This document shows, piece by piece, positions 410-60,620 of a stretch of 64,000 bases of DNA. This DNA is from Henricia sp. BOLD:AAB3569 (lineage: Eukaryota; Echinodermata; Asteroidea; Spinulosida; Echinasteridae). The stretch spans positions 62,001-126,000 of the forward strand of contig JBBELK010001221.1 of NCBI GenBank assembly GCA_037783545.1, written 5' to 3'. The notes beneath the pieces are model-generated. The model was not told the origin of the DNA, did no database searches, and saw only the letters and a list, made by a program, of their open reading frames with translations. The stretch's first letter is position 1. Each line of letters opens with the position of its first letter. The position numbers and the translations under genes were made by a program.

Positions 410-3400
410 GTGACGATTGGTTTCAGTAAAGAAAAGGCGGAACCAGGACAAGATATTAATCTTGATATCACGGCAGAGGCCAACTCGTTTGTGGGTGTCC
501 TTGCGATTGACACTAGCGTAGCGTTGCTTAAGACAGGAAATGACATCACACAGACCCAGGTAGGTCAGAGGTCGTGGGGAGGTGGGCGCTGGGGGACGAG
601 ATATTAAGCTTGATATTAATGCGGAGGCAAACTCGTTTGTGGGTGTCCTTGCGATTGACACTAGTGTAGCGTTGCTTAAGACAGGAAATGACATCACACA
701 GACCCAGGTAGGTCAGAGGTCGTGGGGAGGTGGGCGCTGGGGGACGAGATATTAAGCTTGATATTAATGCGGAGGCAAACTCGTTTGTGGGTGTCCTTGC
801 GATTGACACTAGTCTAGTGCTCCTTAAGACAGGAAATAACATCACACAGACCCAGGTAGGTCAGAGGTCATAGGTTGTGACCTCACCATGGGGGACGATG
901 GGGGACGGGATATAGACAGCCGAAGTGTGACGTGGTTGCCATGGCGATTGGCTCTAAACTATCATTGCCGTCGGGAAAAGTACCATTGGAAAAGCACTGG
1001 GACACGGTTTAGTGATTTTTAGTTTAGAGCCAATTGCCTAGGCAACCAACAAAAGGTGACGTATTCACTTCGGCAGTCTATTAAGTTTGATATCATGGGG
1101 GAGGCCAACTCGTTTGTCGGGGACTCCTTGTGATTGACACTAGGGTCATTCCATGTCAAATCAACCAGTGGTCCCCAGGTGACCCTCTCAGATTTTGATG
1201 AAATTTCATGAGAATGATTGGGTGTGGCCCGAATGAACACATACAAAAAAGTAAGATAATTCTCGATGTCGTTTTCGAGATATGGCCAGTTGAAATTTGG
1301 TCAAGAGGGCCATTTTCTGCTCGCGTGTGTCGTGAAAAGTGATTTTTGTGATATTTTCCGACTTTGAAAGCTCATAATTCAGTCTTTGTACCAGGTAGAG
1401 AGCTCAAATATGGTATTCTAGCTTACTTCTTGGCAAAAATCTTGAATCTGCACTCAATTTAACTGTATCTCCTTTATTTTTCTGGTTATGGTCACCCAAA
1501 GTAGGCACTTTATTCAGCCAAAAATGTTTTTTTGTGATTTTCGGGGTCACCCTGTGCCCACATGATGGGTCAAATAAATCCTATATTCCCTAGGTAGTAT
1601 CTATGGGTGCATGTCTATACCCATAAGCAATTATAAGCTCACCAATGCATTAATTAAGAAATGGCATGGGCCCAAAGTTGGCTCCAGCCAGAAAAAGGTC
1701 AAAAAGACCCCTACCGTCTTGACCCCGGTTGACCCCGTGATCAATTGAAATTGTTTTTGAAATTTACACCAGTTAAACATATATATTATATCTACTTATA
1801 CACCAAATTTCAGCTTTGGCACTCAACTCCTTCATGGTGTGGTGGCAATTTGAATATTATAAGTTTTTCGCTCATTTAAACATAAATCCGTACAGTAATT
1901 TAACATCATACAGTGTATTTCAAGTTTGAAGCTTGTGTAATTTATTTTTTGCAGCTAGAAAAAAAGTATATTCAACACTAAAATTCATCAGAAAAAGTTT
2001 GTTTTTGTTTTTATTATTGTTTTTAGAAATAACATGTAAATACCATGTACAGCACATGTACAGACACATGTTACATGGTATTTACATGGTATTTACATGT
2101 ACATTTTAAAATTATTGTAACTAAAAAAACTGTAAGAGTGGCCATCCCAAATCTTTCTAGAAATGTTCCTTACATCTTAAGCTAACAAATAAATAAGCAA
2201 TTACGCATTTTGACAAATACGCATTTTTGCAAATCAAGGGGAAAAAGGTGCGAAAATTGTCTATTTCTCAAATTGTAACCACACCATGAAGGAGTTGAGT
2301 GCCAAAGATGAAATTTAGTGTATAAGTAGATATAATATATATGTTTAAGTGGTTTAAATTTCAAAAACAATTTCAATTGATCACGGGGTCAACCAGGGTC
2401 AAGACGGGAGGGGTCTTTTTGACCTTTTTCTGGCTGGAGCCAACTTTGGGCCCATGCCATTTCTTAATTAATGCATTGGTGAGCTTATAATTGCTTATGG
2501 GTATAGACATGCACCCATAGATACTACCTAGGGAATATAGGATTTATTTGACCCAACATGTGGGCACAGGGTGACCCCAAAAATCACAAAAAACATTTTC
2601 GGCTGAATAAAGTGCCTAGTTTGGGTGACCATAGCCAGAAAAATAAAGGAGATACAGTTAAATTGAGTGCAGATTCATGAATTTTGCCAAGAAGTAAGCT
2701 AGAATACTAAATTTGAGCTCTCTGCCTTGTACAAAGACTGAACTATGAGCTTTCAAAGTCGGAAAATATCACAAAAATCACTTTTCGTGACTCGCACGAG
2801 CACAAAATGGCCCTCTTGACCAAATTTCAACTGGTCATATCTCGAAAACGACATGGAGTATGATTTAACTTTTTTGTATGTGTTCATTTGGGCCACACTC
2901 AATCATTCTTATGAAATTTCATCAAAATCTGAGAGGGTCACCTGGGAACTTTTCAGAAAATTGGTTGATTTGACGCGGAATGACCCACTAGCTTAGCGCT
3001 CCTTAAGACAGGAAATGACATCACACAGGTCAGAGGTCATTTAATCGTATTCTTGACATCAACTCGACAAGACAAAAATTGTGCTAAATTCAGTTGAGCC
3101 TTTAAATCATGCTGTTTTTCTTTATAATACATGTCTCAGAAATGTTAACCTTTTGCTCAAATTATCTGGCATCAAACGAGCTTTTGGCTTGAAATTATTT
3201 TTGACTGCGAAACTTACACTACCCATCAAAACTTTGGAAACACCTTGAAAGTTTTAGGTTTTTGAGAAGGAAGTATTATTTTAATTGTTTATTCATAATA
3301 AACCAAGCTAATAAAGCAAACGGAGGTGTAAGGGGTATCTGGAGAGAAAGCAGTCATCTGGAGTGCCCAGTCACCTGATCTCAATCCTATTGAGCTGCTC

Positions 3401-6400
3401 TAGGAGGAGTTGGATCGTAAGGTCAGAAAGAAATGCCCAACCAGCCAAAAACACCTCTGGAGAGTCTTAAAAGAGGCGTATTTCCACTGAATGTTTAATG
3501 AAACTGACAATCAGGATGCATAGATTGTGTAGCAGTCATAGCTGCTAAGGGGGGATCCTTTGATGAACATCAAGTTTAGCCGTTTCGTTTTGCATGCTCT
3601 CCAATTTGTTGATAAAGCCCACTGCTGAGGCGGCGAGGCCGAAGACGGCACCAAAATTATTATATATATATATTGCTTTTTGTTAGAATACACCTACATT
3701 TGCTTTCACAAAATTAACATTCATTTATACGTTTTCTTTTCAAAAACCTGAAACTTTCAAGGTGTTTCCAAAGTTTTGATGGGTAGTGTAATTTAAAAAA
3801 ACAAAATCAGGATATGTCAAAGTTGGCCACGACAAATCCTCATGACTGACCGTCAAATTGGCTAATGTTGATAAATTCTAAATCAGGGGCCAATTTCATG
3901 GCGCTGCTAAGCACAACAATTTGCTTAGCAAAGGATTTGTTCGTTTTATTTTGCAAAAATAGATTGCCAGCCAAAATCGTAAGTGATGTGTATTGAAAGG
4001 TATTCACCTACTCTTGCGAAGAACACAAGTTGGCTTATAATTTTGGCTTGTAATCCATTTTATAAAACAAGTTATGTGCTAAGCAAATTTTTGGGCTTAG
4101 CAGCGCCATGAAATTGGCCCCTGGTGATTTCAATGTTTGCCAAAATCTAATCACATGTACCCATAGTTTGATTGATTTTAACTGTGACCGATGCATGTTT
4201 ACAGGTTATTGAGGCACTGGGGAAGTTTGACACAGTAAACAACGGTGGAAGTGATTTTGATGGTGATATTGGCCGCCCAATATTCCGCAGGAAACGCTCT
4301 GCTGTGTGTTGCGGATGGTGGCCCTACCCTACCCCAGGGGAGACTGCTCGGGAAGTCTTGAGGGTAAGTATGTCAGCTTGAGTCTAAACCTCCTGTCTTA
4401 ATCCAACCAGAATTTTTAAGGGACTAACTAAACTTTCCAAAATACTAATTTATAGCTTTCTACAACATGCAACATCCGGGAATGTTTGGGTGTCACTGTC
4501 CACACGCGTACACGCGCGCACCAATAGCCGCACATGAACATGCGTAAAAAATACCCACCAGTGTATTTTCATTTGGAAATGCTGCACGCGCGCGTTGCGT
4601 TACGTTAAAGTTATTGAGCATGTACTCAGCTTGCAAAAAACGAAAGTGTTTTTACTCGATCACGATTTAGCGTGAAGATTTAGCCGTGGTGCAACAACAT
4701 AAAGCAAGGTTAAGCAACAGAGGTAAGTGCAACCAATGTGCTTTTCTTGCTGGTTAGCACTCGGGCCACGTGAGTCATGGGCCTTTTTCCAAATCTCGGC
4801 TTCGTCTCCGTCTTCGGCTCTGTCTCCATTCCGCCATCTTGAAGCCGCATACCAAACTTCGGCTCGGCTTCAGGCTTCATTTTGAGGCTTCGTTTTGGCC
4901 CAAATGAGGCTCCAAAACGAAGTCAACTAAAGAGGTGACTTCGGCCGGCTTCGTGACGTCATGAACTGGAAAATCACGTGACGGCAACAAAAACTGAACT
5001 TTTGCAGGTTTGCTAAACTTTGCCGCTGACAAAACTCGTCTGCTAGCGCCCAAAAAAAGCCGCTAAAATAGAGTGGTAGGCCTACTAGGCTCGACTAGTG
5101 TTCCAAACGTTTTTTTGTTTGGCTTTGCTAAAGTGAAGCCGAAGACGGTTGGAGCCGGAGCCGCATGAAGCTGGAGCCTGAAAACGTAGTCGAGATTTGG
5201 AAAAGGGCCATGATTGTCAAATGACAACCAAAATGGTGGAAGGCATGATGTTACCGTATAGCTATCAATACACCAATCCGGTAACTAAGATCTCCTCCCT
5301 GCATATCCGCCATAGCTGGGGGGCATCCAGTGCATGGGCTGTGCGTTTTGTGTTGCTGTTACATTACATGAATGAACGAGCCTCCTTCGCGTATACGCGA
5401 CGCGCCTGCCTTTGCGTACACGCGACGCGCCCGCCTTCGCGCGCACACAACCGTACAAAGACGCGCAACTTGTTCGAAGTAAACAAATGCAGCTTCAGCA
5501 ACAACAAAAACATACAGTTCATTCAGTGGAAGCCCCCAAGCTATGGCGGATGTACAGGGAAGAAGACCTTATTACCGGATTGGTGTATAGCCAAAACAGG
5601 GCATGTCAAATTTTCCTCTCATACTCCTTGGGCGTATTTGAAACCCTGTTCACTGAAATATTGTTCTATTCTTAGTCGGCAGGTATTTTAGTCTTCACCG
5701 ATGCCCTTGTCTACGGGGAGCAATTCCATGGTTAGTAACGTTACATATTTAGCAATTTACTGTTCTATCCTCTGTTACATCAACACACAAGCCTGTCAGT
5801 TCTCCATTTTGGTACCATCAATGCATCTCACCAACATCTACTGGACAGTAATAACTAAAATCATCTAGCCCCATTGGTTAGTAACGTTACCAAAAAAGGG
5901 ACATGCAAAAATGCATATCTTGAAACAAAACGTTTCCTCAAATGGGACACAACTGAAACAAACTATTATATTTCGTTCATTGCTTGTTTACTGGTGTGTG
6001 TTTTTGTTGATGCCAAATCACCCCTACTCTCACCTTTTTTTATATGCTATCATTTAAAGTCGGTTTATACACAAAAATATAATTGTACATTTTGTGAAAA
6101 TGTCCACCTGATCGTGGAATTTATTTATTTATTCACCACATCCAACAGCGGAGGGACCGCCAATTACAGGAATGGGAGCAAGTGTGGTTGAGTGCCTTGC
6201 TCAAGGGCACAGGTGTCACGGCTCGGAATCGAACCTACATTCTAGTACTAGCATAGGAACTTAAGTTCGACGCACTAGACCGCTCGGCCATAACACCCCA
6301 CAAGAGGTCAATTGCCCATTGACCTCTCTCACAGACGCCATCTTTGTAGGAAAAATGCCACTGCGTATTAAACGCAATCAAGTACGCGCACGCACACCCT

Positions 6401-9400
6401 GGAAAATGTTCTTAAAACTTGTGCGTGTTGCTCGAAATTTGTTCGAAATATGACGCAGCCGTTGCGCGTCACAAAAAGATCCTGATGCACGTGACAATTT
6501 GTAGGATGTGACGTCATTTGAGAGTGATCAATACGGTCTATTGAGTAGTGGGAATAACGCTTGTTTGTCGACAGGGTTTGGCCGTGGAGGCATTATGGAT
6601 GATGCTATGGGCATGCCAGCATTTGCTGAAGCGGCCATGGGAGATGAAGCAGATAATTCTGGACCACTTTTGAAGTCATCTCCAGGCGTCGGTGCCACAA
6701 AGCCACGAGTTCGTACCGAGTTTCCTGAAACGTGGTTGTGGCAAGATTATACAACAGGGTACGTTATCTGGGGTAGATTTTGACGTGCATGCATGCTTGA
6801 TTGTCCACAGGGTATGCCCGTGGAGGCATTATGAGGGCTGATATCATGCCAGCACGAGCTGACTCTGGACTTGAAGAAGAAAAATCAGAACCAGTTCTCA
6901 AGTCTCCAGGCGTCGGTGCCACAAAGCCACGAGTTCGTACCGAGTTTCCCGAAACGTGGCTGTGGCATGATTATACAACAGGGTTGGTTTTTTAGTTTAG
7001 TGTTTTGTTTTTTTCAGTTCAGTATTCTTCATTGCTTTTCATTTCATTGTTTTAATTTAACCCGCAAAGTTTAGATTATATTGTCTCTTGAGAGCAAAAA
7101 GTTCCAATCAAATGTTAAATTAAACTTGACATTACCGGAAGTTACCAAAATAACTGACATTTTTGCAAAAAAACTGACCTGCAATGTAGTTTTATAACTG
7201 GCCAGAGATGAGGATGGTAAAATGCTGATACTTTCGATTGACATTGCTGTGTAGTACACTACTCACAATAAGTTAGGGATATTGGTATGGTTGAATGTTT
7301 GAATTTTTAAAAATAAAAATTTAATGACGGTTTTCGCCTATACCTGTGACGCAGGTGTGTCTGTCATGCAGATACAATTGTCTAATCATACAAAATCATT
7401 CAAGCGGAATGCATACCCTCAATAAAATAATCTGCATACACCCCACAATATCCCTAACTTATTGTGAGTAGTGTATGTAATAAATCTTGTGATTCGAGAC
7501 TTGTTGTATTACCTAAAGCGTTACTTTAGGCACAACTTGCGCCATGACTTGCGCTACGACTTATTTATGCCAGAATTTACACCGTGACTTCTGCCGCAAC
7601 TGACTATCACATGATCATAATAATAATAATAATAGTGACATCTTTTACAGCACACCTATCTATCCTGTGGGATACTCATGGCGCTTTACAATATCATTCA
7701 TTACCCTGGTCATTGGGCACAACTCCCTTGGGAGTATGCAGCCCTGGCAGCCTGACACACGCACTCAGGGGCAGGTACCCATTTGATCCTGGGTGGAGAG
7801 AGGCAACTTATGACAAAGTGCCTTGCCCAAGGGCACACACACCATGGAGGATAGTCGTATCACTTGACAACATTATCACCCTGGTCATTGGGCACAACTC
7901 CCTTGGGAGTATGCAGCCCTGGCAGCCTGACACAAGCGCTCAAATGCTGTAACACTTGCAGTTCCCCATTTACTCCTAGGTGGAGAGAGGCAACTTATGA
8001 CAAAGTGCCTTGCCCAAGGGCACACACACCATGGAGGATAGTCGTATCACTTGACAACATTATCACCCTGGTCATTGGGCACAACTCCCTTGGGAGTATG
8101 CAGCCCTGGCAGCCTGACACAAGCGCTCAAATGCTGTAACACTTGCAGTTCCCCATTTACTCCTAGGTGGAGAGAGGCAACTTATGACAAAGTGCCTTGC
8201 CCAAGGGCACACGCACCATGTTCGCGGCCGGGAATAGAACCCACGACCATGGAATTAGACACGCTCTTGAGTTCCATGCACCAAACCGCTTGGCCATATG
8301 GTACTCTATGAAACCATGAAACATGTACTAGACATCAACTCTCTACCTTTCACCGCGTTCCCTTTTCACTTTGCCTGTTGCAGAGCCGATGGTCGTGTCC
8401 GTGTTTCAGCCACTGTACCAGACACCATAACCTCATGGGTAGCCAGTGCATTTGCCATGTCGGCACAGAAAGGACTCGGAGTTGCTGAGTCACCTGCTAA
8501 GGTAACCACGAAATCCATGATTCTCAAATTAAGTATGAATAAGTGACTGTTTTTAGGGATGATGACCCAGGGACCGCCAGGGTCAATAAATTTGATACAG
8601 ATGTGGACAAATGTCCATGAGTTTGGGAAATCTGGATGCAGTGAAAAACCAACTTGGCTCCACCGGGATTGGAACCGCGGACCTTCTGCTTAACGTGCAG
8701 ACGCCCTACCAATTGAGCTATGAAGCCAACTGGTGGTCTTGAATCATGGTAGTGCAGTTGTTCCTCACTGATTTGGATTGGCTATCACGTGAGCTTAACA
8801 AGCCCTACAGAGGGATAGACCCTTCAATGAGATAACCACCCCTCCCAGAGATCAGTTAAGATGCGCCCCAAACCCAAATTCTCAAATTAATTCCAAATTC
8901 TGAGTTTGGTTTCCATTTGTGTAGAAAAAGACTCTTCCGAATAGAGTATAATTGTTAACCCTTTAGTGTCTGCGGTACTCAAAATCACTCAATCGCCCAA
9001 AATCACCCTCTCTGCTTCACTTCAATGTCTAAAACCTTCCAAGTAATCTGTGGTTTCAATGATTCTTTAAAGAAAAAAAAACAATCAAAAACATCAATTA
9101 GAAAATTTGAGTTAAAAATTGGAATACATGTAGGCCTATATAAATCTTGTTGGCATGTCTTTGTTGTCACTTAAAAATAAAAACGTAAACACTTCTGCAT
9201 TTTGGTGAACACAAAGGTTACAATTAATTGAACATCACAAACGTTTTTTTTTTTAAACAAAAGCTTGACAGAGCAAAAAAAGAGCAATTTTGTACACCTT
9301 TTATTAAAAGTTTAAAGGCACAGGCTCGTCAGCAACGCGCGCACGCCAAATTCGTTCCACGAAATACGCAGCTCCATGCATGTGCTATGGCGCTGCGTAT

Positions 9401-12400
9401 TTTTTGGCGCGCGCATTGCTGACGAGCCTGTGCCTTTAACCCCTTGCCACCGGATGTCGTCTATAGACTCGACTTGTGAATAGACCATGAACTGGCTGAC
9501 GTCTATAGCCGCATTACTGCACGTACACATATAATTCAACTTGCACCTGTGGTTGCTGGCATGTTTGCATTGATTGTTGAATTTTGTATTAGGGGAATGT
9601 TTAGAGAATATTTAGCCCCTTGCCACCGGATGACGTCTATAGACACGGTGTGACCCGGCGTATACCCTAGACACTGCCCGGTGGCCCACTGCATGAGTCC
9701 TCGGTGAAATTAATACCGGCCCACCAGCAACCATTCGTATAAAAATACCGGTGGCAAGGGGTTAATGTGAACGGAGAATGTTTTTATTATTATTTTTTTT
9801 TCCACCTTTACAAATGTATTTTGGCCCATATTTTAACAAAAAGGTTGCCAAGTTCCAACTGATTTCTTTTTATTGCAACGCAAATGAAATAACCAAATAT
9901 ATATTAAGAGAAACATATGGTCCTTCTTGAGATTTGAACCCAAGACATTTATCCTGACATTGGTACTGTTTTCCATCCAGGTGACTGTTTTCAGGCCGTT
10001 CTTTGTCTCGTTGACTCTCCCGTACTCGGTGATTCGTGGAGAGAAGCTCGTCCTTCAAGTTACTGTCTTCAATTACATGAACTATCCTGTACAGGTAATG
10101 ATAATAAAACCCAAAACGAGCTCGGCAATGATAGAAAAGAAACGCTTCGTACTTAAAGATCCCTGAGCACTCCTCTCATAAATAGTAAGGCAGGCATGTA
10201 ACTTTTCAGCTGATCAGCTGATTTTCTCTTTTTTGTTTCCTCATCTGTCCCATTGAAAATATAAAAAAAACACTGTACAAAGTTTACATTGTTTACATTT
10301 TCCTCTTTTTTTGATGTTTGATACAGTTGCATGCATGGTAAGGGGTTTCCCTGGTGTCTCTGGCCATCGGCTGCCAATGGCACCACCCACCTATGTATCT
10401 TGATATTTAGGTGGAAGACACTTGTAAATTTACGGGCTACGAATTGAAGTTCCATAAAGTATCAAAAAAGTCTACTGCCTTTACTTATTTCCATCAAAAA
10501 GATCAAATAGAGCTGTGAGTCAAAGGGGTTTCCCCGGTGTCTCTGGTCATCGGCTGCCAATGGCACCACCCACCTATGTATCTCGATGTTTAGGTGGAAG
10601 ACACTTGTTTATGAAGGGGTTTCCCTGGTGTCTCTGGCAATTGGCTGCCAATGGCACCACCCACCTATGTATCTTGATATTTAGGTGGAAGACACTTGTA
10701 AATTTACGGGCTACGAATTGAAGTTCCATAAAGTATCAAAAAAGTCTACTGCCTTTACTTATTTCCATCAAAAAGATCAAATAGAGCTGTGAGTCAAAGG
10801 GGTTTCCCCGGTGTCTCTGGTCATCGGCTGCCAATGGCACCACCCACCTATGTATCTCGATGTTTAGGTGGAAGACACTTGTTTATGAAGGGGTTTCCCT
10901 GGTGTCTCTGGCAATTGGCTGCCAATGGCGCCACCCACCTATGTATCTCGATGTTCATGCCGAGGATACTTGGAAGCTTTGTGCAATTCAGCCTACGGGC
11001 TGCGAATTTGAAGTTCATTATAAAACCCAATAAATAAAATAAAACAGTTTTGTCAAGTTGGTGTTAACCCTTTAAACACTAAATGTCACATTTGTGACTA
11101 ACCCGATGAGCCACTATTGTGACTTTTGAGTGACGTCTTCATAACCGGTTGATAAACCGGTGTCATTGCGCATAAATAATTTAGGGTTCAAAGGGTTAAG
11201 ATTTGTCAATTTACTGCTTATTTCTGTTGTATTATTAAAGTCTACATATAATTTACTTATAATTTTTGTCACTTTTTTTTATATTTAATTTTAAATTAAT
11301 GGTAAATTTTTTAATTTTCATTAATTTTATCTCAGGCATCGGTTACCTTGACTGGATCTCCTGAGTTTCAGAATCTGAATTATGACAACAAAGGCGCCGA
11401 AAAGACATCCAACACTGATCAGGTTAGTTCAGATATTGACCAAATAAACCATTTACAATGGCAGCCATGTCAGGGTGCAGGTATCCTTAAAGTGATGTGA
11501 CAATAGATTCGCAAAGTGCCTACTCATGCAAGACACACCTACTCATGATTGCCTACTAAAATGGCCGCCGGGCAAAGTACCTATTCTTGGGCTTCACTTG
11601 GCTTGACAACGGTTGCTATTATTTTCGCTTTGGCGTGCCATAGTATGGACACAGTAATGACAGATATGATAGCTGTTGACGTCACGCGTATGGCACGCCA
11701 AAGCGGAAATAATTCAACACTGATAATTTTACCATCAACCCTGAAAAACAAGTCTCAACATTTTTAAAAACTTGATAACAAAAGCACGGTATGCCAGTTT
11801 CAAACAGTCTATCAACATTTAAAAGTCATGGCAACCTTTTTTTCTTGCGCAACATTTGCGAAAATATGCGTCAACATATAAACTATTAGTGTTTAATTAT
11901 TTTTCGCTTTGGCGTGCCAAAGTATGGACGCAATAATGGCGGATAGCAACACATTGTCAAGCCAAGTGAAACCCAAGAATTGACCCCTTGCATATACGCC
12001 ATTTAGGAGTCAAATATGACGTGTCAGTCTTGACTCCGTGTGTGTGCACATTGTTTATGTCTTTTGGCGGGCGTAACGTGGTTTATTTAACTAATGTGAG
12101 GCTTAGGACAGCACGTTACCCGTGCTATAGTGACACACACAATACGCATGCACATTGCTTCAACAACGATGCAACATTATTTGACTCCCAATTGGATGTA
12201 GTAAGCACAACCCTATTATTACCCATTAGTTCTCAAAGCACCCGAAACAGCCCTGCAGCTTTCTCCTCAAAGCGCCCCAAACCACCCTGCAGCTTTCTCC
12301 TCAAAGCACCCGAAACAGCCCTGCAGCTTTCTCCTCAAAGCACCCGAAACAGCCCTGCAGCTTTCTCCTCAAAGCACCCCAAACTGCCCTGCAGCTTTCT

Positions 12401-15400
12401 CCTCAAAGTGCCCCAAACAGCCCTGCAGCTTTCTCCTCAAAGCACCCGAAACAGCCCTGCAGCTTTCTCCTCAAAGCACCCCAAACTGCCCTGCAGCTTT
12501 CTCCTCAAAGCGCCCCAAACCACCCTGCAGCTTTCTCCTCAAAGCACCCCAAACCACCCTGCAGCTTTCTCCTCAAAGCACCCGAAACAGCCCTGCAGCT
12601 TTCTCCTCAAAGCACCCCAAACTGCCCTGCAGCTTTCTCCTCAGAGCGCCCAAAACAGCCCTGCAGCTTTCTCCTCAAAGCACCCAAAACAGCCCTGCAG
12701 CATTCTCCTCAAAGCGCCCAAAACTTCCCTTTATTTATTCCATGTTCAACTCAGTGAAATTCAAGTTTCTGCAAACACACCCTCTATTGATAGGCATAGG
12801 GGTATTTCTATAAATTAGTGGTCCAAAAGTGTGACATTTAGTGTCCCCCGTTACAACTGATGTGTTATTTTTCGTACAAAAATAATTAAAATGGCCTTTA
12901 AACCACTTTATGTACTCACTCTTTGAGATGGAAAGTATTGTGTCCTGAATTTACAAAAACAAGATGTAAAATGTAACGGGGGACACCAACATTGGACCCC
13001 TAATTTATAGAAAGACCCATGTACTCGTAGCTTGACTCATCCTCTTTCAAATAATAAGGGTGGCTACTAATGAGTAACTCTGGTTATTGACCTTGACAAG
13101 GAACATTACTTATGACCAAAAAGCTCTGAAGAAAATAATAAGAGACACTATTTGTTACGAGTGAGTGCTATTGGGTAATCGTAATGCTTAACGTCATTTG
13201 CAGGTAAAGTCCGTCAAGGTACCGGCCAGCGATGGTGCGACCATCTACTTCCCCATTCTGCCACAGAAACTTGGAATGATTGACTTGGCAGTTCAGGCTA
13301 CCACTGATAAAGCAGGTGATGCCGTCGTACGACAACTTCTGGTCGAGGTATGTCATCAAATCCCCAGTTTTGACATTTTTATTTTTTATCTTTGGGCCAT
13401 TTCTTAAGTTTGTTTTCCAAGTCTTAAAAGACTGTGTCCAGATCACATTTTGAGCCCCCATTTTTCCCATGGGTGTTGAGACTTTAATAATTGATCATAT
13501 ACCACATTTTGCGTGCCAAATCCACATATTTCTAAGGAGATTGTCAAAATACCACCAATGTTTTGTAAACTAATTTTCCGGTTCCATAAAACAGTGCAGT
13601 AATTACACCAACCTTTTTGCTTCCACATCCAAATTGGAGATTGCAAGTTTCCCGTTTTCTTCCCATGGATAGTATTTTGGAGAGGTTATTTTATATGATT
13701 GTTGGGTTAGAACGAAATCCATTTTCTGGAAAAATTTGAACAACGTCCTTTAAAGAATAATCCAGAACACACCTGGCATATTAGTTTTGGGAGACTACAA
13801 TGTACTTAACAAGACTGACTATTAAAGTAATTACAATAATGGAATTCTTATTTGTCCGCAGCCCGAAGGAGTCCCCACATCCTTCACAGAACCCATCCTG
13901 ATTGATTTGGAGAAGACTGGTGGCTCATTCTCCAAGGATTTCACCTTCAGAATTCCCAAGGATCAGTTGGTTCCGGGATCTGTTAAATCTCAACTGACCA
14001 TAACAGGTGTGTAAAGTAAAATGGGTGTGTAAAGTGACAGGTGTGTAAAGTGACAGGTGCGTAAAGTGACAGGTGCGTAAAGTGACAGGTGTGTAAAATG
14101 AACAGATTTTAAAACTTGTTTTGGATTCCTGGAATAAGGGCATAACATATCTAAAGAAGAATCCTGGTAACCAGCCTGCAGAAATTTCAGCTACATAGAT
14201 GCAGCAATGCTTCAGAAAACCTTCAGAATCTATGCATGTTTTTTGTTTTAAGTAAATGGTTTTAAAAAAGAAGTGTTCACACACATTTTTAAAAAGCATC
14301 TTCAGTTGTTTCATTCAGTCGTTTCATTTCTTGCAAAACATACCATCTTGGACAGAACTCATGTGGTGTTTGTTACCATTGCTATCAACACTTTAAACAA
14401 GGTTTTTCTTGTCAACTAATGAACTCAACTTTTGCAAATGATATAACAGGCCCTCGGGACTTAACCCATGTCTTATTTTGTTTAATCATTGCTTGTAGGT
14501 GACATCATGGGTCCTACAATGAGTGGTCTTGACAAGTTGCTTCGACTACCGAGCGGTTGCGGAGAGCAGACAATGGTATCGTTTGCTCCTGATGTCTTCA
14601 TCTATTCATACCTGACGAGTACAAACCAGAATAACCCTACAGTCCAGCAGAAGGCTGTAGACTTCATGAAAACAGGTTTGGAAACGTGACTGATTGACCT
14701 TGTGCATTTTCTGTGTTGTATTGGGAGTCAAATGAAACCACCTCACAATGCATTAAGTGCGTGTTGCGCTTTATCAAACGCGAACGCACATTGGAATGCC
14801 ATGAGATGCGTTAATTTTGACTACCAAAATGGCAGTCTGTACATGTGTCTGCACATAGTTGCTTTCAGCTGCTAAACAGCTTTATGAATTTGGCCCCTGG
14901 TGTTGTCTAAACTCATAAAGGCAGAAAATAATACATTTCAGCGTTTCGACATGCATATGGGTAATTCCCAAAATTAGGGGTCCAAACTTTTTCGTGTCCC
15001 AGTTACGTACGACACTCTCTGCTTCAAAAATCACCACTCGTGATCACAAATTTCTCAGTAATGGACTGTGGCCTGTGATCATAAAATGTAGGGGGCAGCA
15101 TCATTTTCTTCAATATTCTGTTCTCTGATTCCTGAAAAATATTCAAAACGAAAGACCATAAAGGCTTATAATTCGTTCCATGGTATTGAATAGGAGTTTG
15201 GTGTCCCAGGTTACCTACGCCAATGAAAATTTACTGTAGAATTAGTTTTCATTAACCTTGGTGCCATATCTACACAAACATTAAATTTAAGTGGCATTTG
15301 TTGAAATAACAATAATTATTTTTTCCTGGGAAACCACTTTCAATCATTAAAAAAACTTGGAAATCTTAAAAAGCATGTCACACTTTTGGACCCCTAATTT

Positions 15401-18400
15401 TGGGAATTACCCATATCGTGTTATTCTCTATAATTTTACCATGTTAACTGGTTCCCTTGTCCCACAGGTTACCAGCGAGAGCTAACCTACAAACACAAGG
15501 ACAATTCATTCAGCGCATTCGGTAACAACGATCCCTCCGGTAGTACATGGCTTACGGCGTTTGTCATCAAGTGTTTCGCTCAGGCTAAACCATTCGTCTA
15601 CATCGACTCTAAAGTGATCAAGAACTCTACGGAGTGGCTGATTAGGCAACAGACTGTGGATGGGGATTTTGAGGAACCTGGGAGAGTTATCCACACTGAT
15701 ATGCAGGTAACTAGACCCATCGCAGTCTCCATAGATAAACTAACCCTCTATACCCATACACAAAAACGTGTTTACACTGGTCCCGAGCTCGGAATCAAGA
15801 TTGATCTCCTGATAAGAATGCGTCAGTGTTAACCGCAATGATCCTGAATGCCGCGTTTACATTCTGTAGTTGATTTCGAGCGCGGTGCCAGAAGTTGCAT
15901 TCAAAGGTCATGCTCTGTGTGTGCATGTACTGATCAATGTGTGCATGAGTTGTGCATGTACAGTGTACAATGCCACTGGGATGCGGTAAAGATTAATTGC
16001 TTATCTAACCGCAAAGTGCCTTCCTTGCTCTTGGACACACCCCATTTTTAGCATATTTGTTTCTTTCTGTGTTATACATTTGTTCCTTGGTCAATAGGCA
16101 TCTTATAGTAAAGTGCCTTGCCCAAGGGCACACACCATTGTCATCTTTTTGTCTGGCTTTCTGTCTCTCTAACTCAGCCTAAGGTATACCTTTACTCCTA
16201 GGTGGAGAGAGGCATCTTATAGTAAAGTGTCTTGCCCAAGGGCACACACCATTGTCATCTTTTTGTCTGGCTTTCCGTCTCTCTAACTCGGCCTAAGGTA
16301 TACCTTTACTCCTGGGTGGAGAGAGGCATCTTATAGTAAAGTGCCTTGCCCAAGGGCACACACCATTGTCATCTTTTTGTCTGGCTTTCTGTCTCTCTAA
16401 CTCAGCCTAAGGTATACCTTTACTCCTGGGTGGAGAGAGGCATCTTATAGTAAAGTGCCTTGCCCAAGGGCACACACCATTGTCATCATTTTGTCTGGCT
16501 TTCTGTCTCTCTAACTCAGCCTAAGGTATACCTTTACTCCTGGGTGGAGAGAGGCATCTTATAGTAAAGTGCCTTGCCCAAGGGCACACACCATTGTCAT
16601 CTTTTTGTCTGGCTTTCCGTCTCTCTAACTCAGCCTGAGGTATACCTTTACTACTAGGTGGAGAGAGGCATCTTATAGTAAAGTGCCTTGCCCAAGGGCA
16701 CACACCATTGTCATCTTTTTGTCTGGCTTTCTGTCTCTCTAACTCGGCCTAAGGTATACCTTTACTCCTGGGTGGAGAGAGGCATCTTATAGTAAAGTGC
16801 CTTGCCCAAGGGCACACACCATTGTCATCTTTTTGTCTGGCTTTCCGTCTCTCTAACTCGGCCTAAGGTATACCTTTACTCCTAGGTGGAGAGAGGCATC
16901 TTATAGTAAAGTGTCTTGCCCAAGGGCACACACCATTGTCATCTTTTTGTCTGGCTTTCCGTCTCTCTAACTCGGCCTAAGGTATACCTTTACTCCTGGG
17001 TGGAGAGAGGCATCTTATAGTAAAGTGCCTTGCCCAAGGGCACACACCATTGTCATCTTTTTGTCTGGCTTTCTGTCTCTCTAACTCAGCCTAAGGTATA
17101 CCTTTACTCCTGGGTGGAGAGAGGCATCTTATAGTAAAGTGCCTTGCCCAAGGGCACACACCATTGTCATCATTTTGTCTGGCTTTCTGTCTCTCTAACT
17201 CAGCCTAAGGTATACCTTTACTCCTGGGTGGAGAGAGGCATCTTATAGTAAAGTGCCTTGCCCAAGGGCACACACCATTGTCATCTTTTTGTCTGGCTTT
17301 CCGTCTCTCTAACTCAGCCTGAGGTATACCTTTACTACTAGGTGGAGATAGGCATCTTATAGTAAAGTGCCTTGCCCAAGGGCACACACCATTGTCATCT
17401 TTTTGTCTGGCTTTCTGTCTCTCTAACTCGGCCTAAGATATACCTTTACTCCTGGGTGGAGAGAGGCATCTTATAGTAAAGTGCCTTGCCCAAGGGCACA
17501 CACCATTGTCATCTTTTTGTCTGGCTTTCCGTCTCTCTAACTCGGCCTAAGGTATACCTTTACTCCTGGGTGGAGAGAGGCATCTTATAGTAAAGTGCCT
17601 TGCCCAAGGGCACACACCATTGTCATCTTTTTGTCTGGCTTTCTGTCTCTCTAACTCAGCCTAAGGTATACCTTTACTCCTGGGTGGAGAGAGGCATCTT
17701 ATAGTAAAGTGCCTTGCCCAAGGGCACACACCATTGTCATCTTTTTGTCTGGCTTTCCGTCTCTCTAACTCAGCCTAAGGTATACCTTTACTCCTAGGTG
17801 GAGAGAGGCATCTTATAGTAAAGTGCCTTGCTCAAGGGCACACACTATTGTCATCTTTTTGTCTTGCTATCTGTCTCTCTAACTCAGCCTAAGGTATACC
17901 TTTACTCCTGGGTGGAGAGAGGCATCTTATAGTAAAGTGCCTTGCCCAAGGGCACACACCATTGTCATCTTTTTGTCTGGCTTTCCGTCTCTCTAACTCA
18001 GCCTAAGGTATACCTTTACTACTAGGTGGAGAGAGGCATCTTATAGTAAAGTGCCTTGCCCAAGGGCACACACCATTGTCATCTTTTTGTCTTGCTATCT
18101 GTCTCTCTAACTCAGCCTAAGGTATACCTTTACTCCTGGGTGGAGAGAGGCATCTTATAGTAAAGTGCCTTGCCCAAGGGCACACACCATTGTCATCTTT
18201 TTGTCTGGCTTTCCGTCTCTCTAACTCAGCCTAAGGTATACCTTTACTCCTAGGTGGAGAGAGGCATCTTATAGTAAAGTGCCTTGCCCAAGGGCACACA
18301 CCATTGTCATCTTTTTGTCTTGCTATCTGTCTCTCTAACTCAGCCTAAGGTATACCTTTACTACTAGGTGGAGAGAGGCATCTTATAGTAAAGTGCCTTG

Positions 18401-21400
18401 CCCAAGGGCACACACCATTGTCATCTTTTTGTCTGGCTTTCCGTCTCTCTAACTCAGCCTAAGGTATACCTTTACTCCTGGGTGGAGAGAGGCATCTTAT
18501 AGTAAAGTGCCTTGCCCAAGGGCACACACCATTGTCATCTTTTTGTCTGGCTTTCCGTCTCTCTAACTCAGCCTAAGGTATACCTTTACTACTAGGTGGA
18601 GATAGGCATCTTATAGTAAAGTGCCTTGCCCAAGGGCACACACCATTGTCATCTTTTTGTCTGGCTTTCTGTCTCTCTAACTCGGCCTAAGGTATACCTT
18701 TACTCCTGGGTGGAGAGAGGCATCTTATAGTAAAGTGCCTTGCTCAAGGGCACACACCATTGTCATCTTTTTGTCTGGCTTTCTGTCTCTCTAACTCAGC
18801 CTAAGGTATACCTTTACTCCTGGGTGGAGAGAGGCATCTTATAGTAAAGTGCCTTGCCCAAGGGCACGCACCATTGTCATCTTTTTGTCTGGCTTTCTGT
18901 CTCTCTAACTCAGCCTAAGGTATACCTTTACTCCTGGGTGGAGAGAGACATCTTATAGTAAAGTGCCTTGCCCAAGGGCACGCACCATTGTCATCTTTTT
19001 GTCTGGCTTTCCGTCTCTCTAACTCAGCCTAAGGTATACCTTTACTACTAGGTGGAGATAGGCATCTTATAGTAAAGTGCCTTGCCCAAGGGCACACACC
19101 ATTGTCATCTTTTTGTCTGGCTTTCTGTCTCTCTAACTCGGCCTAAGGTATACCTTTACTCCTGGGTGGAGATAGGCATCTTATAGTAAAGTGCCTTGCC
19201 CAAGGGCACACACCATTGTCATCTTTTTGTCTGGCTTTCCGTCTCTCTAACTCGGCCTAAGGTATACCTTTACTCCTGGGTGGAGAGAGGCATCTTATAG
19301 TAAAGTGCCTTGCTCAAGGGCACACACCATTGTCATCTTTTTGTCTGGCTTTCTGTCTCTCTAACTCAGCCTAAGGTATACCTTTACTCCTGGGTGGAGA
19401 GAGACATCTTATAGTAAAGTGCCTTGCCCAAGGGCACGCACCATTGTCATCTTTTTGTCTGGCTTTCTGTCTCTCTAACTCAGCCTAAGGTATACCTTTA
19501 CTCCTGGGTGGAGAGAGGCATCTTATAGTAAAGTGCCTTGCCCAAGGGCACACACCATTGTCATCTTTTTGTCTGGCTTTCTGTCTCTCTAACTCAGCCT
19601 AAGGTATACCTTTACTCCTGGGTGGAGAGAGGCATCTTATAGTAAAGTGCCTTGCTCAAGGGCACGCACCATTGTCATCTTTTTGTCTTGCTATCTGTCT
19701 CTCTAACTCAGCCTAAGGTATACCTTTACTCCTGGGTGGAGAGAGGCATCTTATAGTAAAGTGCCTTGCCCAAGGGCACACACCATTGTCATCTTTTTGT
19801 CTGGCTTTCCGTCTCTCTAACTCGGCCTAAGGTATACCTTTACTCCTGGGTGGAGAGAGGCATCTTATAGTAAAGTGCCTTGCCCAAGGGCACACACCAT
19901 TTTTAGCATTTTTGTCTGTCTTTCAGGGCGGTGTGCCTTTTACGTCCTTTATTTCATAAAGCTGATGAGCAAAAAAAATTGCTTAATCCAAAATTGGTTG
20001 CTTTATAAAAATAGGTTAGTAGTCAAAATTTTATGTGATGTGTATTGCAATTGACTGATGTTCTGCTATTCTTGCTAAGAACACAAATTTATATACAATA
20101 ACCCATTTTTATTTAGCCAACAAGTTTTGGAATAAGCACATTTTTTTCTGCTAAACCACTTTATGAAAAAGGACGTCCGGATAAAAACCGTAGCTTAAGT
20201 GCCTTGCCCAAGGGCACACACCATTTTTACCATTACTGTCTGTCTTTGTCTTTCAGGGCGGTGTGTCCTCGGCGTCTACCATGACAGCTTACGTCTTAAT
20301 CACTCTCAAGGAAGTCCAGATGAAGACTGCAGAATTGGCTTTGCCGCAGGTAATGTATGCCGTGTCTTAGAGTAGTTTACCAAGCAATAAAAGAAATAGA
20401 ACAATTTGTACACTTTTTCCAATTTAAAAAAAGCTTCTAAACAGCGCCATGAAATTGGCCCCTGGTGTATATTGCATATACAACGTCGTGTATGGGCAAA
20501 TTACATCCATTTAAATCTTGATATTTATGATCAATATTTATATTTGTGATCATATGTCATTTCGTCTAACAGACTTTCTGGGATAACGTTGATCGTTCAG
20601 CCACTCTCGCTAGGAGCTTCCTCGAGCGCCGCTATGACAGTATCATTGACAAAGTGTACGCTCTGTCCATCGTGACCTACGCCTTGACGTTGTCTGGAAG
20701 CACTCAAGCCAGTCGCTTCTTGACTGCCTTTGAGACGTTGGCAGTTGTTGAAGGTAAGGCCCGTTTTAAACGTCGCGCTTATGCCGTGTCGAAATAAATT
20801 TAACTTGATTTTTTTTAATTCGACACGGCACAAGCACAACGTTGGAAGCCATTTGGCTCGGCAAAATGAATTCAACACGGCAGAAGAATTTAGCTCTACA
20901 GGGTCTGCCGTGCTAACTCAATTTAGTGCGGCACTAGCACGGCTCAGCTTCAAACGTGGTGCTTCTGCCGTGTCTAATTTATTTGCAGTTCGAAAATATT
21001 TCGACGTACAATGGACAGAATGGAAAACGCACGTGTACAACATCCATGACGTGCACAACGTCCATGACGTGCACAATACTCATCCTCCATGTTGGATGTA
21101 TTTAAGCTCAACCGGGAGCTTACAATTAAGTTGGACGTTTGAAGCCACTGCCGTGCTAACGTCGTGCCAAGTTAAATTTAATTGGACACGGCGCGACGTT
21201 TGAAGCCGGCCTAAGACTACAATCAGAATGAGTGACAAAACGTCTACTTTTTACTTTCGCATCCAAATTGGAAATTGTAAAGTTTTCTTCTTATGGATAG
21301 TATTTTAGGGAGGTATTTTATATGATTGTTAGGTTAGAACGAAATCCATTTTCTGGAAAAATCTGAACAAGCTCCTTTAATTGATAATCTTTATTTCTAA

Positions 21401-29920: not shown

Positions 29921-32900
29921 TTAATTAGCCTTAGCTCTGATCTGTGCTCGCTTGGCTGTGACTGCCTGGTACCCGGACTTGATGCTGGCGACCGAACACC
30001 GAGACTGACATCTTTCACACTGAAGGAAGAAGAGGCGGTTCTCTTTATGTAAGAAAGTGTCTGAAGATCGACACGTGTGACATGTTACGTACTCCTCTGT
30101 TGAATAAAACATGAATGAATATTAATTAATACATATTCAGGATTTGATCACTATGAGCATATTTCATTTGGGAAACAAATTTGTGGATCTCTTTGTGAAA
30201 ATGGGGTGACATAAATGACATACTCCGATGATGAATAAAAAAAACATTGCATATTAATTAATCTGCCTCATACATATTCAGAAGTCATTCTTTCTAAGCA
30301 TATGTGACCGGCTCCAGCAAAACCCAACACTTGTGATGAAAATTCAAAATTTAAGTTTTGGTATCAGCTTAGTATGCATACAAAAAGGTATCTTTTAAAA
30401 TATGTTTGAGGAAATTCTGATAATTTTTGGCGAAGTTATGACCAATTAAAGTATGACAGATCAGAAAAAGTGAAATGGAGCTATAGTTTGACAAACTAGT
30501 TGATTATTTAATTTTTTGTCAATAATATGAGGAATTTTGAGACAGTTCAAACAACAAAACAAATCTTGAATGTATCCCGATGTTGATTCTGCCAAATTTT
30601 TAAGTTGGTCCCAGAGGCCATTTTTTAAGGTTGTGGGCCCATATCACGTACTGGGAAATGCCAAGAAGCGTCGGGTTTTGCCAGAGTCGGTCACATATTT
30701 CAATGGACAAAGAGTTGGGTCTTTTTCTGTAGTTAGGGGCTGTCAAAAGTTGTAAACATTTTCACCGAACTTTTTACAGAGCGTAGTATTTTTCATGACA
30801 TCCTCTCCAAAATATTACATTTTTTCAATACCGTGAATTCGTGAAATTTTATGTCAACATTTTACAGTGCATGTAAAGTCCTACGTGACTCCCCTCCCCA
30901 TTCCTACGCGGCAGTGTGATTTTTTCCGTGATAGTGTGAACGCCTTTAGTATTCCAACTGTTCCACAATTAGTGGCAGACATAAAAGCCTGATTGCACAG
31001 TGTAGAGAGTTTTTTTGTTTACCTAAACCTAAAATAATAGCAATGTTGACTTCTAACCGCAATGAGCTTGCTTAAGTGAATAGGAGCATGACCATGTAAA
31101 CATTTATACACCATGAGATCAGATTTAAAATCAGATTTAAAATCAGATTAAAAATCAGATTTAAAATCAGATTTAAAATCAGATTTAATATCAGATTTAA
31201 AATCAGATTTAAAATCAGATTTAAAATCAGATTTAAGATTCTGCAAGATTAGGTTTACTCACTAATATATCGGCGGAGGACGTTTTCAATCTGTTTCTGT
31301 TGGAATCGGCCCTTGATGATCAGTTGATTATTACCATCAATTGAGCCGCTTGTACCCATCTCGGCTAGGAGGAAGGACAAGAGGTGTTCCGTGGGCCGAT
31401 GAAGCCTACACAAGGGAACCAAAATGGGCATTAATCAGGGCATGATTTGGACGAAAAACTCTACATAGCAATTATTGTTGTGTACTATTAGTATGTATGC
31501 TATAGACGAATCCCAAATTAGCAAATTTGAGACCGTTCTGCGCAATTCCGGGTTTGATAACGAGGCTCTTCGTGTTAAGCAACTGAAGTGAACTAATGTA
31601 CGCATGTAAATGCACAATCATACATGCCACGCAGAACAGCACACGTACGCAAACACTCAGTCACTGTAGGATACTGTACGTGTAGAGCACGTGTACTGCC
31701 GACTTTACATGAAGAGCCTTGGTTTCAATGCAGAAGTGCGCAGAACAGGCTAAAGTGAAATTTGTCTATAGTTATGTTAATTTACTGCTAATTTTTGAAA
31801 AATGGCATTATAAAGGACCTCTCGGAAGAGCTTGCAAAAATTATAGATCACATTAATTGAGGTTTGTTTTGCCCTTACCCAACGTAATTGTTAACACTGT
31901 ATGATCAGCACTTTCCCGAGACACTATGAACAACTTTATAGCGTGCTCGGGTGGGACTCGAACCCCACGACCTCCTGCAAATGAGGCAGACGTCTTAACC
32001 ACTCGACCACCGAGCTAGCCGGTGATGAATGGCCGGTTCGAATCATTTCACAAGGGGGATTGCAATTAGTCATAAATTGATTTAGCTTGCAATTAATATT
32101 CAGTTTCCTCGACACAAGCTAAATCAATTTCTGATTATTGATCATGTCAGGTAAGGAATTTCATGGAGGTCATTGAGGCAAGACGGCCACACCCTCTTGT
32201 TCCTGGTCTTGGGAGCACTTGTAGTCTAGTGGGTATCCAGCCGTGCTCGTGATCGGATGATTGGGGGTTCGAGCCCCACTCGTGCCAACGTGTTTGTGTC
32301 CGTGGGCAAGACACTTAATCCAAATTGCCTCGTCAACCCAAGCGATATTTGGGGAGCTGTTAGGGGAGATGCCACAATCTAACTGCTGATAGGTTGTGCG
32401 CCTTGGCCGGGTAGCCACCTAGTTGAAGCGAAATGGTTCTGGTGATTTCCTGATGGCAGCGATGATGTTAATGGCAACAGCGCCAGGAGTACCCTAGGGT
32501 AGACATGTGCGCTATACAAGTGTCCACCATTACATTACATTATTGGGCTTGATGAATTTTTCTGTCATGTCCATAAATAAGAAAAGGGCAACATATCAAC
32601 ATGGGAGGAGGAGACTTTGGGGCTGGGTCTTGGGGAAATTGAGGCTTAAAATTCCTTCTGTTATTTTTACAATTTTAAAAACTTTGACTTACATTTTACA
32701 AATATCTGTGAAGTTGACGAAGCTGCTTTTCTTGGTTCCAACCCTGACAACTTGAGGCGGTTTCATGATGAATCGCTTCCTCTCACCGGTAACCATGTCG
32801 GGATTCTTGGCTCGCATGATGTCAAATACTCTCGTCAGAAGCTGTGGTCAAGTTAGGATGATAAATGACAAAATGCAGACTTACAAGTTTTTAAGGTTTT

Positions 32901-39879: not shown

Positions 39880-42800
39880 TTATTTCTTGCGACCCCGTTT
39901 TGGCCTGACTTGGTTAGGGTTCCGTCGATGATGCGCAGCGTTACTCATGAAGCTCCGTACTCCGAGCTGTGCCGATTTACTGGTCGTGTCTTTAGGAGCA
40001 AACGGCGAGCTGCCAACGATGTAGTCTGTGTTGAAGATGTCGGTTTTCATTTGAGCCTTATGGGAGAGACGATTATGGGGGATTGGTTGGTCCTCTACTA
40101 GGATGGGGTTATCGGCATGTTTTCCCCCTTTGGGTTGCGGTAGTGGGTACTGAGGAGGAAAGTAAAGATAGATTTATGTCAAAATATGTCGGCTGATGTC
40201 ACAATGGTATTGTGTCGCACCAAACTAAATCTTTGGGGTAATTGTATAGCTTTTGGGTTGGAGTCCTGACCTTATCCATGGTGCATCTGCCCTTAGGCAA
40301 GGCACTTTTACTGTAAATTGCCTCTTTACATGTTTTTACAATAAGTAAAGCAAAGGCAGATGTGTTGAATTGCCCTGCAGCCAATTTCACAAAAATTCAC
40401 AAAATTATTTTAAACTTCACTGCATGCAATGAACATTATGGGATCCATAAAACTGATTTATTTTAGAATTCATTTTTTGAACAAAGATAAATATTATACG
40501 AAGCAACAAAAGCAATGCAAATTTTCCTCACAAACAAGTTTATCAAAATTAGAAAATTTCTTTTGTAATTAAGTTGACATCAAAATATTCACATAACAGC
40601 TTCATTATCCATGACTGCGTAAAGCTTCTGTGTGCTGAAAATTCCCACTCTCAGATTGACAGAAAGAGTGGGGAAATGTTTTGCCGTTTCTTTTGTTGCT
40701 CGTAAGCCAAGACTGGTGCTCTAATTCATATTATGTTGAGTACATAGCACCTGGTGTGTTGTCGTACCTTGAAACCTCTTTTATTGATGACCTTGCGATG
40801 TGACAGATGAATGCGTTGACTTCCATCTTCATTCGTTGTCACGGTAACCTTGTCAAGAGTTTTGTTACCACAGAACGGACAGAACACCTTGGTCAGCACT
40901 TTGGTGATTCTGGGAAGAAAAAAACAAACATGATAAAAAACTAGAAAATTTGATCTTGTAATGATGACATGTTTACAAGTTTCTGGTCTTTTTAGTTACC
41001 ATGAGGACTAGTATTGGCTAGCAACAAGAGGGGCACTTAATAGTTCTAAATAAAGCCCGGTTAATACTTCGGGCGAAATCGAATGCAAACGAGAATTTGA
41101 CGTAAATCTGACAGCAAACATTTCGTGGCAAAGATTCACAAGTTGAAATTAGTTCAACTTTCTGCAAAATCACGGCACAAAAACTTCACTGTGATGACAA
41201 ATTTGTGTTTGGTTCGCTATCGCAAGTATGAACCGGGCTTAACCGAATAGACTATCAAATAGCTGGGCAATTTATTTGTTCCTTCAGGACATTTTGTGCT
41301 TACATCGTTGACCAATTTCAACAACAAAAGTTGCCCTACAAGATGGCAGCTATTCGATATGGTCTATAAGAAACTATGCACCAATTCAGCAGAAAACATT
41401 GCTGTACAGTACTGTTAGTAACTTGCAATAAATTTGCAATAAATTTGAATTTTGCAAACATTGTTTCATTTTAATGATTAGGCACCATGCCAAATATTGA
41501 GGAGTAGGCCTTTACCAGAGTGCCTCATAGCTCAGCTGGTAGACTCTAGAGCAGACTGCTACTCAGACGATACTCGGTTGTATTTGTCATTCTGTCCTGA
41601 TGAGTCTGGTAGTCAAGAGTTTGCTCTTTCTGCCATGGAGGCTTGCATCCACGATGTCCGGCAGTGGTTGCTTACTCACGGGTTACTTTTGAATGACAAT
41701 AAGACTGAGTTCCTGATAGTTGGTACCCGTCAACAATCATCCAAAGTCACTCTTGATGGTATACAGGTCGGGCAGTTTACTCTCTCCCCTGTGTCCCTTG
41801 CCAGAAACCTTGGTGCATGGTTTGATGCTAATATGTCTATGAAAACCCATGTCACTAAGGTTTGTGGTAGTGCTTTTTATTATTTGCACAATATCAGACG
41901 AATTAGGCCATATTTATCAAAGAAATGTACCGAGATTCTGATCCATGCATTTATTTCTAGTAGACTTGATTATTGCAATAGCCTTTTTTATGGTTTACCG
42001 GACACACAAGTCAAACAACTCCAGAGAGTGCAGAATGCTTGTGCGCGGCTTGTCTGTAACGAGATTAAGTTCTGCCACATTACACCATTTTCATGGATTT
42101 ACATTGGCTTCCTGTTAGGTTTAGAATCGAGTTTAAGATTTTATTAATTACGTATAAAATTTTATTTGGTTTAGCCCCACAGTATTTAAGTCGGCTTGTT
42201 TCTGTCAGGTCCCAGTCTCGTTATTGTCTTCGTAGCTCTGTTGACGGTATTTTTCTAAATTATCCTACAGGCCATGGTAAGGTTACTCTTGGGAACCGAG
42301 CTTTTGAGTATAGTGCACCACACCTATGGAACAAACTTCCACTTAATGTTAGGAGTGCTCCTAGTCTTGATGTTTTTAAATCAGTGTTGAAAACTCACCT
42401 TTTTAAACAAGCTTTTTATTGATGGGTGGGTTTGATATCTACCGATGCACTTTCTATGTTTAGGTAATTACACGTGTAAATTAATGTATTGTAGTTATGT
42501 TAACCTGTTTTAATAACTTTTTTTTTATTTTTTATATTTTATATTATTATTATTGAAAGTGTAATGCGCCTGTGAACATTGGATGGAATGGGCGCAATAT
42601 AAATTAATACATTATTATTATTATTATTATCTGACCTGAGACTCGGAGGTCTCGGGTTCAAATCCTGAATGGGGACAGGAGAGGTTACAGGCGAATAAAG
42701 ACAGACTCACTTGAAGCAAGCTCGACATCTTAGTACAAAGCTCTTGGCTGTCTTGATTAGCATTCCTTCAACAGACAGGACTGAGATTCCCATCTGGATT

Positions 42801-60447: not shown

Positions 60448-60620
60448 GAAACCTGGCTCCACCGGGATTCGAACCGCGGACCTTCTGCTTAATGTGCAGA
60501 CGCCCTACCAATTGAGCTATGAAGCCAACTGGTGGTCTTGAATCACGGTACTGCAGTTGTTCCTCACTGATTGGGATTGGCTATCACGTGGGGTTAGCAA
60601 GCTCTACAGAGGGATAAACT
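60448..60620 (-). mobile_element. tRNA-headed SINE, copy 2
   Basis: Minus-strand tRNA-like sequence with TAGCTCAATTGGTAGGGCG and GGTTCGAATCCCGGTGGAGC. The anticodon loop reads ACATTAA. The same 3' flank as 8655-8840 shows a repeat family. Confidence 0.7.

Follow-up and report, generated by a model that had tools for sequence, protein, structure and literature searches.

The window analysed here is a stretch of 64,000 nt (C1221:62001-126000) from one assembly of 740.7 Mb in 2104 contigs. It holds part of a thioester protein gene, for which 31 coding pieces (the alternative exons A and B included) were delineated by similarity to sister genes, from 11.8 kb upstream of the window to position 24834; the edges of these pieces are approximate, and small exons may be missing. 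A domain search with a hand-assembled conceptual protein of 1440 residues, its exon edges likewise approximate, returned six Pfam matches above the cut-offs (TED_complement 330 bits, A2M 107, A2M_BRD 96, A2M_recep 74, MG3 63 and MG2 42). The A2M, TED, BRD, receptor and MG domains, together with a GCGEQ motif, place the product among the A2M/CD109 thioester-containing proteins. The sequence-only reading of this DNA had called it CD109-type, and the comparison with solved structures bears this out: human CD109 was the best match among them (738 bits), followed by A2ML1 (496), A2M (477), mosquito TEP1 (393) and C3 (278). Judged by these scores, the predicted product is closer to CD109 than to A2M, C3 or insect TEP. 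The features of the gene that matter for the argument are the following, in window coordinates.

4205..4363, plus strand: exon two before the bait, with RRKR, which we take to be a furin-like motif, plus a CC pair
5676..5730, plus strand: upstream constant exon (SAGILVFTDALVYGEQFH+G), phase 0 in, phase 1 out
6575..6758, plus strand: alternative bait exon A, 184 nt, open in 4/4 copies
6575..6687, plus strand: hypervariable bait part of exon A, 113 nt, from the alignment of both units
6688..6758, plus strand: conserved tail of exon A (VGATKPRVRTEFPETWLWQDYTT), with the slot A marker TTG in TWLW
6759..6810, plus strand: A-B intron, 52 nt (48-66 nt in the other copies)
6783..6783, plus strand: candidate branch-point adenine for exon B (TTGAC, +25 from donor A), a match to the yUnAy consensus only
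6811..6982, plus strand: alternative bait exon B, 172 nt, open in 3/4 copies
6811..6911, plus strand: hypervariable bait part of exon B, 101 nt, from the alignment of both units
6912..6982, plus strand: conserved tail of exon B (VGATKPRVRTEFPETWLWHDYTT), with the slot B marker CTG in TWLW
8384..8501, plus strand: downstream constant exon (ADGRVRVSATVPDTITSW...), in frame only after two leftover bases
14501..14677, plus strand: thioester exon, GCGEQ (PSGCGEQTM), TED_complement 330 bits
24676..24834, plus strand: C-terminal exon with a cysteine cluster and the hydrophobic end LLVAMTTLLVALLN, GPI-signal-like by eye only

Several repeats were noted in and around the gene. Tandem partial copies of 148 bp follow the exon VTIGFSKEK...TQTQ, with a donor present and the acceptor unclear (window 410-869); the partial-exon array itself, at 446-869, amounts to 2.9 copies. 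By eye, an inverted-repeat element of 1.8 kb interrupts one more copy (about 1080-1144 / 2990-3040), and the neighbouring gene carries about seven such partial copies. The intron after exon B contains a perfect 30-nt inverted repeat with arms 161 nt apart (7255-7475), resembling a small transposon. Other introns of the gene hold a 34-bp minisatellite (14.5 copies, open over long stretches in three reading frames; 12232-12724) and a 114-bp satellite-like array of 33.6 copies at 96% (16096-19924). Four matches to the Rfam tRNA family were recorded on the minus strand (8655-8727, 31943-32016, 55327-55399 and 60454-60526), the first of which lies inside a thioester-gene intron and may be a tRNA-derived repeat. 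Elsewhere in the window there is a 20-bp array of 21 copies with 100% matches (60877-61298), and an open reading frame at 41497-42147 (RLDYCNSLFYGLP) presumably resembles a C-terminal piece of a reverse transcriptase.

The gene had also been ascribed to a deuterostome, and the mitochondrial sequences of the same assembly agree, displaying an echinoderm-type genetic code and gene order. Among translation tables 9, 5 and 2, COX1 is read best by table 9 (AAA=Asn, ATA=Ile, TGA=Trp), as judged by conserved residues. The reading frames are ordered cox1-nad4L-cox2-atp8, where we take those after COX1 to be nad4L, cox2 and atp8 and their order to be that of echinoderms. The 1.5 kb before cox1 carry minus-strand tRNA genes (Leu, Gly, Tyr, Leu, Asn) and a plus-strand one for Gln, an inverted tRNA block that we assume to fit a sea star. 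The mitochondrial evidence indicates an echinoderm host, probably a sea star, and the animal is called the sea star below for short. COX1 occurs three times in contig C955, 16221 bp apart, and once in C2104; the mitochondrial genome seems to have been assembled head to tail, probably as an artefact.

Exons A and B had been described from the letters alone as homologous exons of 184 and 172 nt sharing entry and exit phases, and all coordinates, lengths and phases, as well as the 52-nt intron between them, proved exact. Both are bounded by GT and AG, and a repeat finder aligned the copies at 88% over 103 nt and 82% over 50 nt. The claim that their 3' parts are alike and their bait parts unlike holds as well, since both end in VGATKPRVRTEFPETWLW[Q/H]DYTT and diverge 5' of that. 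The upstream exon 5676-5730 ends with a single leftover base, and two are required in front of exon 8384-8501. Scripted joins to these exons showed that only A alone or B alone is open and in frame, as had been proposed; in the window gene, the A+B join meets a stop after 89 of 176 residues, omission of both exons after 33 of 57, and retention of the A-B intron after 87 of 193. The two exons are consequently adjacent, homologous, of the same phase and of similar length, and either joint inclusion or skipping breaks the frame, which is what is expected of mutually exclusive exons. The alignment of the A and B units and a repeat spacing of 224-236 nt fit a single tandem duplication of approximately 236 bp that included acceptor and donor. 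Such a duplication, carrying the exon plus both splice sites, would explain why the A-B intron is so short.

A genome search with the 408-bp A-B stretch found the pair at four places in all. The three places besides the window match the query at 80-82%, one over its full length and two over positions 46-408 and 49-408. The lengths of exon A, spacer and exon B in the four copies are given below.

W, the window gene: 184/52/172 nt
T, its tandem neighbour, C1221:19621-20028: 181/49/178 nt
H46, C46:130916-131286: 160/48/187 nt
H412, C412:1753760-1754140: 175/66/176 nt

The four copies represent three loci (W, T and one locus present as two haplotypes) on three contigs. Seven of the eight bait exons are open and 1 mod 3 in length; the exception is slot B of H412, which at 176 nt is frameshifted with a stop, the shift being either real or a sequence error. 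Single-exon products are in frame with A in four of four copies and with B in three of four, and in every copy joining both exons, skipping both or retaining the intron gives an out-of-frame product that runs into a stop. The donor of the exon before the bait is GGTTAGTAACG in all four, where this exon measures 55, 64, 58 and 64 nt (each 1 mod 3); its last codons also differ among the gene copies. The assembler might in principle have placed two haplotypes or repeats wrongly in tandem, and the assembly does contain one locus as two haplotypes. However, a tandem pair with slot-specific splice sites recurs at four places on three contigs, and an assembly artefact was rejected on this ground as next to incredible.

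The slots can be told apart by their own marks. Slot A combines the donor GTACGTTAT with TTG in TWLW, and slot B the donor GTTGGTTTTT with CTG in TWLW, each in four of four copies. These slot-specific donors and the synonymous TTG/CTG marker indicate that the exon pair predates the gene copies, so that the exon duplication would be older than their split. A regular expression for the tail, which would miss a diverged tail, gave exactly two matches per gene and no further bait exon in the whole of C1221 and in 30 kb each of C46 and C412. Between genes, A and B as whole exons are 62-80% identical and most other pieces 82-100%; pieces 8 and 9 are divergent too (67-82%), which makes the bait contrast weaker between genes than between the haplotypes discussed below. 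A 78-aa query over exons 8384-8501 and 9981-10094 revealed no near-identical retrocopy of a spliced transcript; eight of its 16 matches span the junction of these exons, at 40-57%, and are more distant relatives. Among eight loci of other thioester genes examined by eye, two have no equivalent motif. The equivalent exon shows one differing residue among 67 between L014 and L015, and four plus a one-residue gap in about 100 between L019 and L020 (both by eye, and with haplotype status of each pair assumed).

The broken slot B of H412 implies that B is dispensable in at least some copies, and it is also the first point in favour of a simpler account, in which one exon works and the other is a decaying duplicate skipped by splicing. 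The donor of B (GTTGGT) looks weaker by eye than that of A (GTACGT), and the partial exon copies at 446-869 represent a seemingly useless local duplication in the same gene. Conversely, B is open and 1 mod 3 in three of four copies despite large changes in length and sequence, and its acceptor and donor are kept in all four. The intact B tails, furthermore, differ from that of exon A in T mostly at synonymous sites (synonymous/replacement: 3/0 for B of H46, 1/0 for B of T and 2/1 for B of W), while the H412 B tail has one replacement. On balance, decay of one exon is an unlikely explanation of the pair.

The short spacer also bears on how the choice would be made. Branch-point-like TTGAC or TTCAC, matching the yUnAy consensus, stands at +25, +26, +25 and +24 from donor A in the four copies, and further yUnAy matches in the short introns lie at +42, +39, +19 and +38, and +56; the second match of the window gene, at +42, is 10 nt from the acceptor. 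Introns of about 50 nt get spliced in some animals. The available parts of published work put the limit for simultaneous use of a donor and a branch point at about 50 nt (PMC5740500, PMC7969005), with 25-41 nt in OGDH (PMC7969005). The matches at +24 to +26 fall below this limit, which makes a steric either/or choice plausible; enforcement by the short intron, as suggested by the sequence-only reading, would thus have a candidate basis in these consensus matches. The reading frame enforces the either/or outcome at the protein level too. A different account is ordinary alternative inclusion, in which transcripts with both exons would be made and then degraded, the choice thereby adjusting the protein level as well; it fits the A+B stop, which falls inside B in three of four copies and, in the remaining one, in the following exon. 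Two observations speak against it: all four copies have a spacer of 48-66 nt and, at +24 to +26, a branch-point-like match; and the next shortest gap among the 31 coding pieces, whose edges are approximate, is 171 nt compared with 52 nt here. We regard inclusion followed by decay as rather improbable.

The copies on C46 and C412 allow the bait exons to be compared between what are most likely two haplotypes of one locus. The contigs align over most of 30 kb in pieces of 88-97%. Moreover, a query of 2 kb taken at 1.0 Mb of C46 has 1225 nt in common with C412 at 0.95 Mb, 100% identical and in the expected opposite orientation, as seen among the best 40 of 1885 candidates scored; the remainder of the query is a repeat present on many contigs. 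The haplotype assignment derives from this one marker, 0.8-0.9 Mb from the bait locus, together with the local alignment. Separate genes are unlikely given a 1225-nt marker at 100%, though a megabase duplication is conceivable. For the window contig, no other full-length match to C1221:171001-173000 appeared among the best 40 of 2328 candidates.

Differences between the two haplotypes are concentrated in both bait segments. The 5' intron is identical at 929 of 971 positions with 58 gap columns (95.7%, gaps apart), and the tails at 81/82 (A, 99%) and 78/82 (B, 95%), both free of gaps. The baits compare at 56/78 aligned bases with 15 gap columns over the first 78 nt of H46 exon A (72%), and at 53/94 with 11 gap columns over the first 105 nt of H46 exon B (56%), the H412 B exon being compared as DNA only because it is out of frame. 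With sites treated as independent, Fisher tests of bait versus 5' intron gave p = 6e-11 (A) and 4e-25 (B), and of bait versus tails p = 4e-7 and 9e-10. The short A-B intron is identical at 46/48 with 18 gap columns, and the 3' stretch at 1276/1545, where the last eight 60-nt windows drop to 40-52% and colinearity ends. In 12 other exons the haplotypes differ at 6 of 561 residues, four of the six in one exon, two before the bait. These 12 come from 14 of the 29 non-A/B pieces that were submitted; one piece was left out because of a gap, with one residue different by eye, and another because it was found in a single haplotype only.

The same contrast between bait and tail is seen in the codon comparisons of the seven intact exons. 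In the bait pN exceeds pS in 15 of 21 pairs and is lower in six, although these counts rest on 25-37 codons, a gapped alignment and non-independent pairs. In the tails pS exceeds pN in 15 of 21 pairs, the reverse applies in three (all with exon A of W) and three are without differences. The bait shows fast evolution by replacement, a pattern in keeping with diversifying selection without proving it. The longest exact block between baits, 44 nt, joins slot A of W with slot B of H46, that is, different slots of different genes; the next longest (38 nt) joins slot A of T with slot A of H412, within one slot. Likewise, slot A reads GPLLKS and slot B EPVLKS in W, and the arrangement is opposite in T (EPVLKS in A, GPLMKS in B) and in H46 (VPVLKS in A, GPLLKS in B). 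Gene conversion between slots and genes is the simplest reading suggested by these common blocks, the alternative being that the blocks were inherited.

In combination, these observations point with good though not complete confidence to A and B as true mutually exclusive bait exons that arose by tandem duplication, one per transcript, with baits that diversify fast. A duplication of about 236 bp would have taken one bait exon with both of its splice sites. Each transcript would then take A or B, as donor A lies too near the presumed branch point of B for joint splicing, and since A+B or neither wrecks the frame, a single-exon choice would follow. The predicted product is a CD109-type thioester protein with two versions of its bait loop, the near-identical tail possibly anchoring the loop in the protein core. 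In A2ML1, according to the available part of PMC9156758, proteases cut the bait, and the C-terminal part of the bait runs threaded through a channel; a bait that is free and a tail that is fixed would agree with this in the sea-star protein. Both bait segments appear to change fast and to swap short blocks with other slots and sister genes, hence the differing baits among gene copies, even between the two haplotypes of one animal. A likely use would be a wider range of proteases or attackers that trigger the thioester.

The mutually exclusive pair could also be part of a cassette system, with templated copying of short blocks among slot A, slot B and sister genes and diversity held by selection, so that every chromosome has its own bait pair from which each transcript picks one. 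We consider this possible, and lean somewhat against it. If it is true, otherwise near-identical haplotypes would differ in what they trap, and a protease bait would serve in this echinoderm as the basis of something comparable to highly polymorphic immune recognition.

Precedents for alternative bait exons were correctly named in the sequence-only reading. In the available parts of the reports, exon 5 of Drosophila Tep2 gives rise to five isoforms, and Chlamys farreri CfTEP has six either/or exons (PMC7016707, PMC5489563); both resemble the present gene in placing alternative exons at the equivalent hypervariable region, and are insect and mollusc TEPs, unlike the CD109-type gene of the sea star. 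Closer still are two genes of the snail Biomphalaria glabrata, as far as PMC7016707 was available: BgTEP2, with 12 either/or exons over 30 kb and transcripts shown, and BgCD109, with eight variants predicted and four recovered. Like the sea-star gene, these use alternative exons for a bait-like hypervariable region that varies in length and residues and keeps some strongly conserved residues in its C-terminal part, and one of the two is CD109-like. Unlike BgTEP2, the sea-star gene has two exons 48-66 nt apart, occurs at three loci and is known from the genome alone, and unlike in either snail gene its haplotype variation is visible from the genome. The residues that differ between snail strains cluster in the bait or hypervariable region as well, according to the part of PMC9363628 available, which provides a partial precedent for allelic bait variation.

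Outside these proteins, OGDH exons 4a/4b belong to a vertebrate metabolic enzyme with mapped branch points, whereas the sea star offers consensus matches only (available portions of PMC7969005). The Dscam arrays of Daphnia and Drosophila are likewise immune-type tandem either/or exons with an excess of replacement in parts that putatively contact pathogens, seen in Dscam as polymorphism; the accessible text of PMC3236188 describes no sign of gene conversion between Dscam exons, whereas the common blocks in the sea star suggest exchange. The A2M of Hilsa shad, also a deuterostome member of the A2M family, has splice isoforms that touch the bait region, yet these have or lack the bait (4/12 have it), and the portion of PMC6650032 at hand describes no either/or bait exons.

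A CD109-type deuterostome gene with such exons had been thought worthy of note, and this stands in so far as no echinoderm case of either/or bait exons was found among the matches listed in the open-access literature. It does not stand for the principle, as snail CD109 variants and the 12-exon snail TEP were already published (PMC7016707, as available). Compared with the accessible parts of this literature, what appears new is that three loci have kept the pair at so short a spacing, that the two haplotypes of one animal contrast sharply in either slot, and that a block is common to different slots. Either/or bait exons are thereby extended to a probable echinoderm CD109-type gene, in which the pair was kept through gene duplication at a spacing of 48-66 nt, and a direct test becomes feasible of whether splicing, gene copies and alleles jointly create a bait repertoire in a deuterostome that has no antibodies.
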